This document shows positions 10,397 through 14,749 of a stretch of 64,000 nucleotides of DNA, piece by piece (position 1 is the first letter of the stretch; every line of letters begins with the position of its first letter). The DNA lies in the NCBI RefSeq assembly GCF_008000815.1, contig NZ_CP042806.1, forward strand, positions 434,001 to 498,000, written 5' to 3'. Origin of the DNA: Terriglobus albidus. Lineage in GTDB: Bacteria; Acidobacteriota; Terriglobia; Terriglobales; Acidobacteriaceae. The position numbers were made by a program, and so were the translations under genes. Under the pieces are notes generated by a model. The model was not told the DNA's origin. It was given only the letters and a program-made list of their open reading frames with translations, and did no database searches.

Positions 10397-10501
10397 ATTA
10401 AATTTCGCAGCATTACGCCAAGGTGACCGGCATCCCGGTGAACTCGTTCGCCGGGGTTACGGGTAGGGAGAACGACTGCTCCTCTACCCAACCTTCCTGA
10501 G

Positions 10502-10533
10502 GGGCTTCAGCGCAAAGCTGAAGCCCTATTTTT
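10502..10533 (+). terminator. Rho-independent terminator-like hairpin
   Basis: GGGCTTCAGC (10502-10511) pairs with GCTGAAGCCC (10517-10526), followed by TATTTTT. It lies 105 bp past the GNAT stop codon. The same GCTGAAG word recurs in nearby repeats, so it may also be of repeat origin. Confidence 0.6.
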
Positions 10534-10728
10534 GGTTCTTCGCGCCGGGTATGGCGACCGAGCAGTGTAAGCGCTGAAGGCGCGCTCTATACCAGCCTGG
10601 GGCAACGCCCCAGGTATGCTGCCCATAGAAAGCAAAAGGGCTGAAGGCCCGCTCTATAATTCCGCAGTGAAGGTGAAGGATACACCGTGGTGTCTGAATC
10701 TAATGTTCATGACATGGATCATGAAGAG

Positions 10729-10850: not shown

Positions 10851-11618
10851 CTACTCATCCAACTTGAAGGTCTTGATCTTCACCAGCTTGGCAACCGTCA
10901 GATCTTTCAACCCTCTCGCCTTCATCTTCTCGATAAACGCCTTATCGATATGAAAGACACACATCTCGATCAATTCCCTGTCACTTGGATTCAGCCCCAT
11001 CGACTTGATCTCGCGGATGCGCTCCGGCGTGACGCCAACAGCCTTCATCTCCGTAAGCTTGTTGGCCCGGAGCTCAGGATATCCCTCGGCCGCGATGGCG
11101 CGGATGTATTCGGGATCGACGTGCAGAGCCCGCAGCCCCATCAGGTGGTTCGCTGTAAGGTTGGTAACACCGGTAGCCTGTATCTGCTTGATCCACGCGA
11201 TAGAGACGTCCAGCATCGCAAAACCCTCCAGGCGCTTGTCGGGAATCTCTCCCTCCAGACCAAGGGAACGCACCTGGCGCGCGTAGTCCATGTTAGGGGT
11301 AAAGGTGTAGCGGCCCGCGAGCATGCCGTCATGCACGACACCGTTGCACCGCATCTCTCCCGCGTCTGCATGCAGACGAGCATCCACCGGCGTTCCCTCC
11401 CGGGTCAGCAAGTCACGTGTGATGCCCCAACGCTCCCAGCCCATGTTGGAGTTCGAGGTGCCGCAACCGCCATCACCCTCACAGTCTGTGCGGTTGATGA
11501 GAAGCGAGACCTGTTCAGGATGCTTCTCCGAAGCCGAAAGCATGCACACACCGGTCCGTGTTTGGGCGTGCGCCGCCGTTAGCCCCAGAACAAGGAGCGT
11601 GAGTGTAAGCGTCTTCAT
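10851..11618 (-). CDS. Secreted protein with BlaR1-type 29-residue repeats
   Basis: This 255-residue protein has a signal peptide (KTLTLTLLVLGLTAAHA) and an N-terminal domain of about 115 residues with several Cys (C25, and the CEGDGGC cluster). From about residue 133 to the end it has four units of a 28-29-residue repeat with cores such as ALHVDPEYIRAI and AVGVTPERIREI. Its last unit, FHIDKAFIEKMKARGL, matches the C-terminal cap of the BlaR1-like protein encoded upstream (FHIDEAFIAKAKSHGF). It is the third gene after blaI and blaR1 and is separated from blaR1 only by a 117-bp repeat element. The role is unknown; a ligand or partner of the sensor is a reasonable guess. Confidence 0.75.
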   Translation of the reverse strand: MKTLTLTLLVLGLTAAHAQTRTGVCMLSASEKHPEQVSLLINRTDCEGDGGCGTSNSNMGWERWGITRDLLTREGTPVDARLHADAGEMRCNGVVHDGMLAGRYTFTPNMDYARQVRSLGLEGEIPDKRLEGFAMLDVSIAWIKQIQATGVTNLTANHLMGLRALHVDPEYIRAIAAEGYPELRANKLTEMKAVGVTPERIREIKSMGLNPSDRELIEMCVFHIDKAFIEKMKARGLKDLTVAKLVKIKTFKLDE

Positions 11619-11627
11619 GATGTCTCC

Positions 11628-11745
11628 TTAGCGCATTTTTCCTGTTACCGGGTATCCCGTAAGTGGCGTGCAGCGGCGTTTTCATTGCGGAAAACGCCCA
11701 TAGATACACAAGCCCTGCACTACACCCACAGGAAAAATGCTTTAG
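11628..11745 (+). repeat. MITE-like inverted-repeat element, family A, copy 1
   Basis: The ends are TAGCGCATTTTTCCTGT and ACAGGAAAAATGCTTTA, with an inner hairpin GGCGTTTTC/GAAAACGCC. It fills the gap between blaR1 and the downstream secreted-protein gene, and its end forms the TAA stop of blaR1. Other copies: 31261, 50463, 52950, 55184 (inverted) and 60035. Confidence 0.88.
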
Positions 11746-13988
11746 TCTTCGAGCAGGCCGCTGATCTTCAGCTTCACCAGCTTGTCCAGAGAGGTGTTGT
11801 TGAAGCCATGCGACTTGGCCTTTGCGATAAAAGCTTCATCGATGTGGAAGTTTGCGGCCTCGCGGATCGTTTTCATATCCGCGTTGGGGAAGGTTTGCTT
11901 CACCCAGCGCGTGTACTCCGGCGTCACGCCCTGGGCCTTGAGCGAGACCAGCTGGTGAGCATCCAGGTCGGTGAAACCTGCAGCCGCCATGCTCTTCGCA
12001 TACTCCGGAGTCACGCCGACGGACTTGATGCTGACAAGGTCATGCAGGTTCTGTACCGGGATCCCCGAGCTCTTCAATCCTGCCGCGTACTCCGGCGTAA
12101 TACCCATGGACTTCAATGCGACCAGATCATGCACAGTCGGCGAACCGTAGCCCATGCCGGCGATCTGCTTGGCATAGTCACCGGTGATGCCCAGACTCTT
12201 CTCTGAGATGACGTCGTGCAGCGACGCAGGTGCGATGCCGGAGTTCTTCAGCTCTGCGACATATTCCGGTGAAACTCCCATCGACTTCAGTGCAACTAGA
12301 TCATGCAGATTCGGTGTGCCGATTCCGATCTGCGCGATAGACTTCGCGTACTCGGGAGTGACGCCGACAGACTTCATACCGACCAGATCGTGCAGCGTGG
12401 GCTTGCCGTAACCGGACTCGGCCACTGACTTGGCATACTCCGGCGTCACGCCGACGGATTTCAGGCTGACCAGGTCATGCAGCGAGGGCGTGCCGTAGCC
12501 TGCCTCCGCCATCTTCTTCGCGTACTCCGGCGTGACACCGACGGAGCGCATCGAGATGATCTGGTCGAGGTCCTTATCCAGGTCCAGCGGATAGCCGGCA
12601 TCCTTCATCTGCTGCAGATAGGCTGCACCGCCTTTGGCGGCGTCCTGGAACATTTTCATGCGTGCGACGGAGACGACGGGAGCGACATTCGCGGCGACAG
12701 CGACATTGACTGCCGGAGCCACTGCAGCCTGTATCGAAGAGTTAACATCCGGAGCAATGTTGGCCAACGGTTCGGGTTCCGGATTTGCCATCGGCGCCGC
12801 TGGCCGGTCAGGTTCCGGCTGCGCAAGCGGTGCGGGATGCTGTTGCTCAACAGCGGTGGGAGCCAGGGCTGGCGCAGCCTGCGGAGCTGCGATGCTCTCA
12901 GCCATGATGGGAGCCGGAATCGGCACGATCTTTGCCTGCTGCTTCAGTCCCTGCGCCATCTTCGGCGCCAGCATCAGGCCCACCACTACCGCTCCGGCCA
13001 CTGCGGCCTGTACACCACTCTTCATTCCTGCCTCCATCTGTCGACCCTCTCCCAAAATCTGTTTCACCCTGCCCAGCAGCGGCGTGTGTCCGTTATTGAG
13101 CGCCACAGCCAGCCGCAGCCGCTCGGTACGTTGTTCTTCCAGGCGCAGCAAGGCCTGCGCATACACCACCGGATCGGCACAGGTCTGCGCCGCCACAGCG
13201 TCGCAGCACACCTCACGCAGATCACGCGCCCGGCGGCTGATCCACCACACCGCCGGATGGAAGAAGAGCAGGCTCTCGATGGCTGTCTGCAGCAGGTTTG
13301 CCGCATAGTCCCACCGGCGGATATGCGCCAGCTCATGCGCCAACACCGACTCCAGCTCCTCCGGCTCAAGCTGAGCCAGAATGCTCGCCGGCAGAATCAC
13401 GGCTGTGCGCCACACTCCCATTGCCAGCGGCGACAACACCTCGTCGGAGAAGCGCAGGGCGACGTTGCGGCCCGTGCGAAGCTGCCGATTGATGCGCTGG
13501 AAGATAATCTCTAGCTCCGCCGGAACCAGCCCCGTGGCGCGTCGCCGTACCAGCTCCAACTGCCACCATCCACCGGCGGCACGAAGGGCGAGCAGCAAGA
13601 CACCACCGATCCAGATACCGTCGATCCAGGGAAGAATGCGGTCAGCGTTCCAGGCGATCCATAGCTCGCTTTCCTGGACGACCGGTGCGGCGACCGGAAT
13701 CTCTTTCACGATTGCTTCGTGGAATGCTCCAAGCTGCGATGCCGCCACAGTCTGCCCGTCGTGCGAGATATGCACCACCAGCCGTGACTGGTCGACATAG
13801 GTTGCGATGGCGGCCAACGGCATCAGCAGCGTAGCAACAAGTGCAATCAGATAACGCGTATTTGCTCCGGCCTTATGCGTCAGGCGGTCGGCAATGCTGT
13901 AGAACATCGCAATCGCCGTTCCCTGCCAGCAGAAGTGCAGCAGAGTCCAGCCCAGCGCCACCATGGTTCCGTTGTCGATCAATCTCAT
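11742..13988 (-). CDS. BlaR1-like M56 metallopeptidase with C-terminal 29-residue repeats
   Basis: This 748-residue membrane sensor protease has N-terminal helices (LGWTLLHFCWQGTAIAMFY and onward), the zinc motif HELAH at residues 218-222 in LAHELAHIRRWDYAANL, and a helix near residue 330. An Ala/Pro-rich linker (about 370-450) follows, then eight 29-residue repeats at about 480-711 with the core KSVGVTPEYAK. Classical BlaR1 has a penicillin-binding sensor domain in this place; here it is absent and the repeats replace it. In BlaR1/MecR1 systems the activated protease triggers loss of the BlaI repressor. The gene is 28 bp downstream of blaI. Its stop codon lies in a repeat element. What the repeats bind is unknown. 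Confidence 0.88.
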   Translation of the reverse strand: MRLIDNGTMVALGWTLLHFCWQGTAIAMFYSIADRLTHKAGANTRYLIALVATLLMPLAAIATYVDQSRLVVHISHDGQTVAASQLGAFHEAIVKEIPVAAPVVQESELWIAWNADRILPWIDGIWIGGVLLLALRAAGGWWQLELVRRRATGLVPAELEIIFQRINRQLRTGRNVALRFSDEVLSPLAMGVWRTAVILPASILAQLEPEELESVLAHELAHIRRWDYAANLLQTAIESLLFFHPAVWWISRRARDLREVCCDAVAAQTCADPVVYAQALLRLEEQRTERLRLAVALNNGHTPLLGRVKQILGEGRQMEAGMKSGVQAAVAGAVVVGLMLAPKMAQGLKQQAKIVPIPAPIMAESIAAPQAAPALAPTAVEQQHPAPLAQPEPDRPAAPMANPEPEPLANIAPDVNSSIQAAVAPAVNVAVAANVAPVVSVARMKMFQDAAKGGAAYLQQMKDAGYPLDLDKDLDQIISMRSVGVTPEYAKKMAEAGYGTPSLHDLVSLKSVGVTPEYAKSVAESGYGKPTLHDLVGMKSVGVTPEYAKSIAQIGIGTPNLHDLVALKSMGVSPEYVAELKNSGIAPASLHDVISEKSLGITGDYAKQIAGMGYGSPTVHDLVALKSMGITPEYAAGLKSSGIPVQNLHDLVSIKSVGVTPEYAKSMAAAGFTDLDAHQLVSLKAQGVTPEYTRWVKQTFPNADMKTIREAANFHIDEAFIAKAKSHGFNNTSLDKLVKLKISGLLED

Positions 13989-14016
13989 CAGTCGCCCCTT
14001 CCGCCGTTGCTCTGAC

Positions 14017-14400
14017 TTACTTTTTGCGGCGCTTTAGAAGTTTGCGAATCTCGTCCAGCTCTTCTTCACTGGCCTGTTCCATCTCCAGTGCGTGCAGTGC
14101 GAGCTGTGCCGCGCTTCCGGCGAAGAAGCGTTCGCTCAGCTCCCGCATAAAACGGCGCTGCGCATCCTCACGCTTGATCGCTGCGCGGTAGACGTGAGCG
14201 CGCTCGCTCTCGTCGCGCGTGACCAGACCCTTCTCGGTCATGATCTGCATCAACTTCAGCACGCCAGTGTAGACCACGGGACGCTGCGCATTCACGTCCT
14301 CGAAGATCTCGCGAACCGTGGCCTGACCACGATTCCAGAGAATCGTCAGCAATTCAAGCTCGCCTTCGGTCGGTTTGGGTGTCTCCCTGTTCTTCATCAT
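14017..14400 (-). CDS. blaI: BlaI/MecI-family repressor
   Basis: The protein is about 127 residues: a winged helix (PTEGELELLTILWNRGQATVREI, VYTGVLKLMQIMTEKGLV) and a C-terminal dimerisation helix rich in Glu and Lys. BlaI represses its own operon and is removed when the BlaR1 protease is activated. An ATG at 14424 is also in frame, but it lies inside the core promoter (-35 TTGACA, -10 TATAAC), so the start is more likely at 14400 or 14397, giving a leaderless or nearly leaderless message. It is the first gene of the blaI-blaR1-repeat-protein operon. Confidence 0.9.
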   Translation of the reverse strand: MMKNRETPKPTEGELELLTILWNRGQATVREIFEDVNAQRPVVYTGVLKLMQIMTEKGLVTRDESERAHVYRAAIKREDAQRRFMRELSERFFAGSAAQLALHALEMEQASEEELDEIRKLLKRRKK

Positions 14401-14409
14401 GGGAGGAAC

Positions 14410-14455
14410 GTTATACGAATTCATTCGTATGTGTCAACGAAAAAGTTCGTACGAA
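14410..14455 (-). promoter_or_regulatory. blaI promoter with overlapping palindromic operators
   Basis: On the minus strand, TTGACA (14432-14437) and TATAAC (14410-14415) are separated by 16 bp. The spacer contains the inverted repeat ATACGAAT/ATTCGTAT (14413-14430). A second palindrome, TTCGTACGAA (14446-14455), lies just upstream with its centre 29 bp away. A BlaI dimer bound here would block the polymerase. Confidence 0.82.
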
Positions 14456-14552: not shown

Positions 14553-14603
14553 AAGGTGGGAGCCGTGGGCTTTCAGCCCACGGGTTATCGAGTATGGGAA
14601 AGT

Positions 14604-14662
14604 TGGGCTTTTAGCCCTGGGTTCTCTTCAATTGGATAGAAAGAGCCCAGGGCTAAAGCCCA
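14604..14662. repeat. Long inverted repeat
   Basis: TGGGCTTTTAGCCCTGGG (14604-14621) and CCCAGGGCTAAAGCCCA (14646-14662) form a near-perfect 17-18-bp stem with a 24-nt loop. Its direction and role are unknown; it could terminate transcripts. Confidence 0.7.
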
Positions 14663-14749
14663 TCGTTTAAAGCTCTTAATCAGCGGGCTGAAGCCCGCTG
14701 CTCCCACCCAAATACAACCTAGAGATAGAGCCGTCAAAGTTAGGCGCAT

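Follow-up and report, generated by a model that had tools for sequence, protein, structure and literature searches.

Bacterial genomes commonly encode BlaI/M56 pairs, but few of their signals are known. The locus described here raises the question of what an M56 protease senses when it carries a helical-repeat solenoid instead of a penicillin-binding sensor, and how it relates to a secreted protein with similar repeats encoded by the next gene. The window, that is the whole stretch of DNA analysed, comprises 64,000 nt of Terriglobus albidus (GCF_008000815.1, NZ_CP042806.1 positions 434,001-498,000, forward strand). Three genes of its minus strand, coding for BlaI, an M56 protease (M), and a secreted protein (S), apparently form one operon. 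A first-pass annotation described it as a BlaI-BlaR1-like operon with a secreted partner and 29-residue repeats in both envelope proteins, and the gene order, Pfam, and AlphaFold models agree with this description.

Genes and predicted domains of the locus

14017-14424, minus strand: blaI-type repressor gene (ORF of 135 aa; Penicillinase_R 94.4 bits, cut-off 22.6)
11742-13988, minus strand: gene for M, an M56 (BlaR1-type) membrane metalloprotease with a C-terminal repeat solenoid (748 aa; Pfam, AlphaFold)
13062-13826, minus strand: M56 domain, residues 55-309 of M (Pfam)
13323-13337, minus strand: HELAH, residues 218-222 of M, with E259 downstream
12669-12944, minus strand: Pro/Ala-rich linker, residues 349-440 of M, predicted disordered
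11883-12578, minus strand: eight 29-residue repeat units, residues 471-702 of M (spacing 29; helical hairpins)
11760-11876, minus strand: divergent terminal hairpin and cap with FHIDEAFIAK, residues 705-743 of M (sequence, AlphaFold)
10851-11618, minus strand: gene for S (255 aa; AlphaFold mean pLDDT 91.7)
11295-11558, minus strand: beta-domain, residues 21-108 of S, which enclose its strands (AlphaFold)
10869-11291, minus strand: helical solenoid, residues 110-250 of S (four hairpins and flanking helices; repeat HMM)
within 10869-11291, minus strand: FHIDKAFIEK, in the last hairpin of the S solenoid

The repressor contains a Penicillinase_R winged-helix domain (Pfam), and its sequence finds solved MecI/BlaI structures (MecI, E 1.5e-9). 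M contains a Peptidase_M56 domain scoring 106.9 bits against a cut-off of 31. Its zinc motif is retained, as had been noticed, and H218, E219, H222, and E259 are invariant among 48 aligned sequences. This half of the protein has the BlaR1 fold (8exs; VIA Z 19.8, 246 residues aligned, 3.6 A; Foldseek E 6e-5), and M scores 93.2 bits on the NCBIfam BlaR1 equivalog, for which 400 are required. Pfam finds no penicillin-binding domain in M, in line with the first reading of the sequence, and the C-terminal region is instead the repeat solenoid. The linker in front of it was also rightly recognized; the AlphaFold pLDDT is under 50 over residues 349-449. From residue 484 to residue 687, the glycines of the eight units follow one another at intervals of exactly 29 (7/7 spacings). 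In the model, eight helical hairpins are canonical and a ninth is divergent, and caps are present as well. The units had been called near-identical. Their count and spacing hold, but their mean pairwise identity is 51%, with a core that is much closer.

S begins with a stretch (residues 1-19) that we read as signal-peptide-like. The four repeat units ascribed to it appear in the AlphaFold model as four hairpins and a cap. Its separate N-terminal beta-domain had been missed; a Pfam search gave no convincing family for it, and as modelled it is an undescribed domain. In Foldseek, no match to the S structure reaches an E below 0.03. Members of the S group hit some Pfam families weakly (LYTB in 21/56, best 9.5e-7; DUF732 in 10; others), which we take to be probable noise produced by helical repeats.

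With M or S as query, no second locus with the repeats was found in the 6.4-Mb Terriglobus albidus genome. A plasmid search with S gave no match, and in a defence-system library (E 0.01) M and S had no match and BlaI a weak one only.

Pairing, fusion, and divergence of M and S

The profile search proposed in the first-pass annotation, for repeats shared by M56 and secreted proteins in one locus, reveals systematic pairing. A repeat-bearing M56 gene adjoins an S gene in 32 of the 36 genomes of the order that bear the module and in 55 of 80 named loci from several phyla, four of them from myxobacterial isolates. In the phylum search, such adjacency is seen at 11 of 59 loci, and at least 62 of 396 genomes gave a match, a lower bound because five candidates were scored per genome. 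M precedes S on the same strand in 98/98 pairs, with a median gap of 42.5 nt. The two observations that could have undone the idea of a link were that the proteins never co-occur or that the unit is a common domain with a known unrelated role. Neither was made, since pairing is systematic and curated families gave no convincing match.

The association is not obligatory. At 34 of the 59 phylum loci, S-type genes occur without M56, and therefore the module also works without this protease. Three genomes (G034, G175, G406) have the M repeat and lack S, in G117 S adjoins an M56 protein without repeats, and at two loci (L147, L149) one M56 gene is followed by two S genes.

At six loci (L057, L117, L125, L154, L163, L320) the S-type beta-domain and repeats are fused to M56. 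Mapping the fused state onto the M56 tree takes four changes, at least three of them forced by well-supported branches. A separate S was found in none of four fusion genomes of the phylum (G254, G313, G490, G538), where all candidates outside the fused frame were scored. Two further candidates were rejected: the apparent in-frame fusion L245/L327 (885 aa) contains a run of X that marks an assembly gap (L327 is still entered as fused in the count of 80 named loci), and L135 (855 aa) is an over-long ORF whose real gene is a stand-alone S.

At the Terriglobus albidus locus, identity is 24% between S and M units and 29% among the S units. The terminal units are closer, as had been claimed, sharing 16 of 34 aligned residues by eye and the pattern FHID[K/E]AFI.K. 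Over the 98 pairs (2 to 4 of them without a value), mean unit identity is 30% between M and S, 44% within M, and 39% within S. Judged from these sequences, the units are diverged and do not evolve in concert. The identities give no sign of gene conversion linking the repeats of M with those of S, and charge complementarity is not seen either, the charge correlation being positive (0.55).

The shared module had been taken to mean that the two proteins interact, or that one mimics the other, to gate the protease. Synteny, apparently common control by one promoter, and fusion or fission on several occasions lend good support to a functional link between S and the protease. Gating or mimicry through the shared repeats is less certain, because the units show neither concerted evolution nor charge complementarity and because each partner occurs without the other.

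Promoter and operator-like sites of blaI

14437-14451, minus strand: operator 1, TACGAACTTTTTCGT, an exact match, upstream of blaI in relatives too
14415-14429, minus strand: operator 2, TACGAATGAATTCGT, palindromic, abuts and partly covers the -10 region, likewise found ahead of blaI in relatives
14410-14437, minus strand: promoter with TTGACA (14432-14437) and, after 16 nt, TATAAC (14410-14415); the operators overlap it

TATAAC as the -10 element is our own reading of a promoter that a simple promoter scan did not list. The longest ORF would begin with an ATG that sits inside an operator, so the true start of BlaI is likely Met9 (position 14400, 127 aa); BlaI of close relatives begins at the equivalent residue. 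The double operator (14415-14451) is a feature absent from the first-pass annotation.

The sites are conserved. Allowing up to one mismatch, a pair of TACGAA-N4-TTCGT operators lies ahead of blaI in 84 of 92 cassettes (36/42 and 48/50 M+S loci), and at least one operator does so in 37/42 and 48/50, with shuffled controls at about zero. The TTGACA-operator arrangement occurs in 36 of 250 family genomes versus one match for a reversed-pattern control. Upstream of blaI in the fused G loci, the operator was found in 0/5. Operator-like sites also stand ahead of beta-lactamase-family, outer-membrane (OMP), TPR, and MacB-like genes. With every ORF scanned, operator locus L242 proved to include blaI, and operator locus L246 proved to include blaI, M56, an ORF with repeats, and S. 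A class A beta-lactamase operon (C1:3660408) has a single, exactly matching operator, which counts as weak only, because about 1.5 such matches are expected in the genome by chance (hand estimate from base composition).

Candidate mechanisms and known systems

The reading we favor, at about even odds (roughly 0.5), is a BlaI/BlaR1-type operon with a split non-penicillin sensor of which S is the detached half. BlaI would bind the operator pair that covers the sigma-70 promoter of its own gene, repressing a co-transcribed blaI-M56-S unit together with a small set of envelope genes. M would retain the BlaR1 membrane protease, with a periplasmic alpha-hairpin solenoid replacing the penicillin-binding domain. 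S, by its beta-domain and related solenoid, may capture an envelope or antibiotic-derived ligand, dock on M, and present the signal to the M56 solenoid, thus activating the protease. The active protease would remove BlaI by proteolysis and so raise S, whose effect would be positive and close a positive loop. The recurrence of this set of three genes in many soil bacteria makes an undescribed type of envelope sensor probable. We advance more tentatively the wider proposal of a two-protein BlaR1-like receptor, in which protease and secreted co-receptor would recognize each other via homologous solenoids while the beta-domain sets ligand specificity, sensing envelope attack across Acidobacteriota and myxobacteria and repeatedly fused and split.

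The split sensor is favored by the BlaR1 fold, the adjacency of M and S, the fusions, the operators, and the operator-bearing envelope genes. Against it stand the diverged units without charge complementarity, M repeats without S, S next to an M56 protein that has no repeats (G117), S without M56, the missing operator in the fused G loci (5/5), and a BlaI without phenylalanine at the cleavage position. Several of these points would suit a shared ligand-binding module, in which the M solenoid senses the ligand alone and S, a secreted effector made on induction, binds or sequesters it too, with no M-S contact. The BlaR1 sensor, being homologous to beta-lactamases, offers a parallel. S follows M in a seemingly autoregulated operon, sometimes as two genes behind one M56 gene, and the divergence of the units and the many unpaired genes also agree with such a module. 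It is nevertheless rather doubtful, as S-M56 fusion without a separate S (4/4 phylum genomes) better fits a sensor part than a diffusible effector.

The same fusions weigh on a role of S as soluble decoy or inhibitor, in the spirit of the mimicry suggested at first, in which S would occupy the M solenoid or the ligand and keep the protease off by negative feedback. The like terminal units and the shared gene order speak for it, but a fused receptor would be permanently inhibited and the units have diverged, so that we consider it improbable. The least probable reading gives the repeats of both proteins a general role as an envelope-anchoring or structural solenoid, binding for instance cell wall or outer membrane, and explains their joint occurrence by common localization only. 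It accounts for S-type proteins standing alone in many genomes and other neighbourhoods, but not for the conserved gene order, the operators shared across phyla, or the single repeat locus of Terriglobus albidus. Among open PMC full texts, the scope of the literature search, no paper describing M56 proteins with such repeats was recognized.

The widespread BlaI/M56 pair described here offers a sensor module that can be identified, a secreted partner conserved along with it, fusions that occur in nature, a precisely defined operator-like site, and a limited set of candidate targets, and what such M56 proteases sense becomes directly testable. From sequence, a BlaI operator is proposed for Acidobacteriota and Myxococcota. 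Since the candidate targets include beta-lactamase-family hydrolases, those of soil bacteria may answer to a receptor without a penicillin-binding domain.

The locus resembles BlaR1-BlaI and MecR1-MecI of Staphylococcus and Bacillus licheniformis in its BlaI-family repressor gene adjacent to an M56 gene, in a membrane protease with HEXXH...E and the BlaR1 fold, and in operator-like sites over the blaI promoter and before some beta-lactamase-family genes. Unlike BlaR1 and MecR1, M has no penicillin-binding sensor; a solenoid of helical repeats takes its place, and a secreted partner is encoded alongside. In S. aureus BlaR1 the autocleavage loop is Ser283-Phe284. Unlike MecI, for which an excerpt of PMC9834060 gives Phe102 as the cleavage position, BlaI here has alanine at that position in 88/106 sequences and phenylalanine, the residue looked for at P1', in 0/106.

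Compared by description, PetR-PetP of Synechocystis is similar in that a BlaI/CopY-family factor is under a BlaR-type membrane protease sensing a non-beta-lactam signal. It differs in that PetP is reported to sense copper, and neither a repeat solenoid nor a secreted partner is mentioned in the passage on it in the review PMC12292863.

The repeats themselves resemble TAL-effector/BurrH and mTERF solenoids, which are superhelices of two-helix units of about 30 residues. The similarity of M to TAL structures (VIA Z up to 9.6, rmsd 15.6 A, 295 aligned) and of S to mTERF4, TAL, and BurrH (Z 5.0 to 5.3, 3.9 to 4.4 A) may reflect a common arrangement only, and S members have no Pfam match to the TAL-effector or mTERF repeat families at E 0.01. 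TAL-effector/BurrH and mTERF proteins bind nucleic acid inside cells; in contrast to these intracellular proteins, M and S are predicted envelope proteins.

The repeat-bearing cassette

The cassette consists of three genes on one strand of the window:

14017–14424, minus strand: blaI; Pfam Penicillinase_R, far over the cut-off
11742–13988, minus strand: M, the M56 (BlaR1-type) membrane protease gene; Pfam Peptidase_M56, far over the cut-off
10851–11618, minus strand: S, the small secreted-protein gene, third of the cassette

The first-pass annotation had read M as a BlaR1-like protein with eight 29-residue units in place of a penicillin-binding domain. Both points hold, as Pfam gives no such domain and the eight unit-core glycines are spaced by exactly 29 residues. 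S matched nothing in Pfam or NCBIfam over any curated cut-off. Mean identity of the repeat units in the window proteins is 51% within M, 29% within S, and 24% between M and S. The genome, 6.4 Mb in a single contig, has four M56 matches that pass the cut-off, and searches with M and with S found the repeats only at the cassette locus. In the flanking intergenic stretches (14555–14708 and 10501–10658) there are short repeats, both inverted and direct, whose arms are GGGCTTTAGCCC-like.

In the AlphaFold models, S (mean pLDDT 91.7) folds into a beta-domain, with strands within residues 21–108, and then four capped helical hairpins, and M (pLDDT 78.6) into a membrane protease, a disordered linker (349–449, pLDDT <50), and a long hairpin solenoid (441–743). 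The protease half of M matches S. aureus BlaR1 (8exs; Z 19.8 over 246 residues, 3.6 Å; Foldseek E 6e-5). Both solenoids resemble TAL-effector/mTERF repeats at a level that may reflect a common arrangement only, and no chain compared with the beta-domain of S scored above Z 4.1.

Candidate BlaI operators

Upstream regions of blaI in relatives have in common two copies of TACGAA-N4-TTCGT, which lie on either side of TTGACA and reach into the -10 region. At least one copy, with up to one mismatch allowed, precedes blaI in 37 of 42 loci where M and S adjoin in the numbered relatives' genomes and 48 of 50 in named genomes; 36 and 48 of these loci have two. The corresponding figures are 4/6 and 2/2 for loci with M only, 0/5 and 1/2 for fusions of the S module to M56, and 0/2 and 0/3 where S accompanies a repeat-free M56 protein; composition-shuffled controls gave about none. 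All four myxobacterial cassettes (L308, L311, L313, L324) carry the operator. The exact double operator occurs in 36 of 250 family genomes (reversed-pattern control, 0), as does TTGACA with the operator (control, 1). A blaI gene lies beside the double site in 29 of 30 loci fetched, one per genome, the exception (L215) being near a contig end. A blaI-M56 pair with repeats and S undetected follows the double operator at L239:2892–4897 (G645), and at L073 the palindrome upstream of blaI is a different one, CTACTACATATGTAGTAG.

Eight double sites lie away from blaI. In the window's genome one precedes the gene of a 932-residue outer-membrane protein that includes a carboxypeptidase-regulatory domain, and one has the equivalent position in G177, where the gene is cut off by the contig end. 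Others precede a beta-lactamase-family gene in both G043 and G177, a MacB-like permease gene in G072, and, in G112 and G115, a gene for a 310–314-residue protein that matches no Pfam family; one lies at the start of another beta-lactamase-family gene in G065. Similar-looking secreted proteins of this description, with the double operator upstream, were noted in two genera (L230:5075–6019, L234:4879–5811). In the window's genome and in G043, similar TPR genes have a single operator with TTGACA upstream; in both genomes the gene that follows belongs to one further family (AP_endonuc_2 in G043).

Two beta-lactamase-family genes of the window's genome have one-mismatch sites upstream of their starts, by about 10 bp at C1:701494–702978 (L361:1995–3479) and about 26 bp at C1:715478–716920 (L198:11479–12921); they are the third-best and best matches there to the G043 target. 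The second-best match and two others whose surroundings were read have no operator site. Sites with one mismatch are frequent, at 132 matches compared with 75 for the pattern reversed, and could be used by other BlaI-type proteins. Between the two genes, near C1:709 kb, two imperfect operators 22 bp apart lie in sequence that looks like the beginning of the 715-kb gene. At C1:3660408 (L199:4409) an exact single operator precedes an amino-acid permease gene, and a class A beta-lactamase-like gene overlaps the latter; the site could be a chance occurrence.

Distribution of M, S, and their fusions

Matches were found in 36 of 200 genomes of the order. M and S genes adjoin in 32 of these, the window's included, with blaI detected in 31; the others have S adjoining a repeat-free M56 protein (G117), S only (one), or M only (two). 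In the phylum, at least 62 of 396 genomes match, a lower bound with five candidates scored per genome. Among 59 loci of 55 further genomes, 11 have M56-repeat and S genes, 4 are fused, 4 have M56-repeat without a beta-domain ORF, 1 has S with a nearby repeat-free M56, 4 have repeat-only ORFs, 1 has BlaI only, and 34 have S-type genes without M56, some clipped by contig ends. Named genomes scanned with a subset alignment gave 92 confirmed loci, the best 80 of which comprise M with S (55), S only (9), S with a truncated repeat ORF (7), S with repeat-free M56 (3), scored fusions (3), M only (2), and repeat only (1). One scored fusion, L327, is instead an assembly gap. Adjoining M and S genes are present in Myxococcus xanthus, M. 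eversor, M. qinghaiensis, and Hyalangium versicolor, and in MAGs labelled Rhodothermia, Marinimicrobia, and Eisenbacteria.

Four S-without-M56 loci whose surroundings were read have S beside a carboxypeptidase-regulatory-like gene, with no BlaI detected, and three of them also have a putative secreted beta-helix protein gene beside S. L120, L123, L127, and L128 have in common an aminotransferase-like, a carboxypeptidase-regulatory-like, and an S-type gene, with BlaI and M56 undetected. At L073:4783–8216, and at L315, an S with nine repeat matches adjoins an M56 protein in which none was detected. A single 723-residue frame at L299:3197–5368 spans BlaI and M56, by natural fusion or a lost stop codon.

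In L057, L117, L125, L154, L163, and both L320 proteins, one chain holds the M56 domain followed by an S-type beta-domain and repeats. L314 (Acidobacteria bacterium Mor1) and L117 are apparently one locus, because the M56 domain of L314 was left out of the tree as identical. On the M56 tree (100 rows) the fused state requires four changes, of which well-supported branches force at least three; L057 and L073 are long branches of unsure placement. Queried with the beta-plus-repeat part of L163 and with every candidate scored, the phylum genomes with a fusion (G254, G313, G490, and G538) gave no match outside the fused frame at E 0.001. G076, one of the 32 order genomes, carries a split cassette at L056 alongside a fusion at L057.

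S as a proposed part of the sensor, and known systems

The fusions provide the strongest evidence for assigning the S module to the M56 receptor, and we put the probability that S is a detached half of the sensor at about 0.5. Several observations count against a split sensor. M and S units have diverged, being less alike than units within either protein (98 pairs, 2 to 4 without a value), and the net charges of the two solenoids correlate positively. It is common for S-type proteins to occur without M56 (at 34 of 59 phylum loci), and M-repeat genes are kept without S in G034, G175, and G406. The chief rival follows the logic of BlaR1 and beta-lactamase, in which sensor and induced effector would have a ligand-binding module in common and make no contact; we regard it as less likely, and the detached sensor half is the reading we favour.

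The layout is that of BlaR1-BlaI, namely a repressor, a membrane anti-repressor protease, and candidate operators over the blaI promoter. Passages of PMC9834060 describe direct cleavage of BlaI by BlaR1 between Asn101 and Phe102 and BlaR1 self-cleavage between Ser283 and Phe284. In the present system the protease residues are conserved. Of 106 BlaI sequences, 88 have Ala at the Phe102 position and none has Phe; therefore a different cleavage site, or a different mode of release, is probable. By the tests made, M is not a BlaR1 beta-lactam receptor, because the sensor domain is absent and M scores 93 against 400 for BlaR1 in NCBIfam. No prior description of the sensor module, secreted partner, or operator was found in the searchable literature (open PMC full text). 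A BlaI-BlaR-type pair with another signal is already known: PetR-PetP, which responds to copper according to a passage of PMC12292863.
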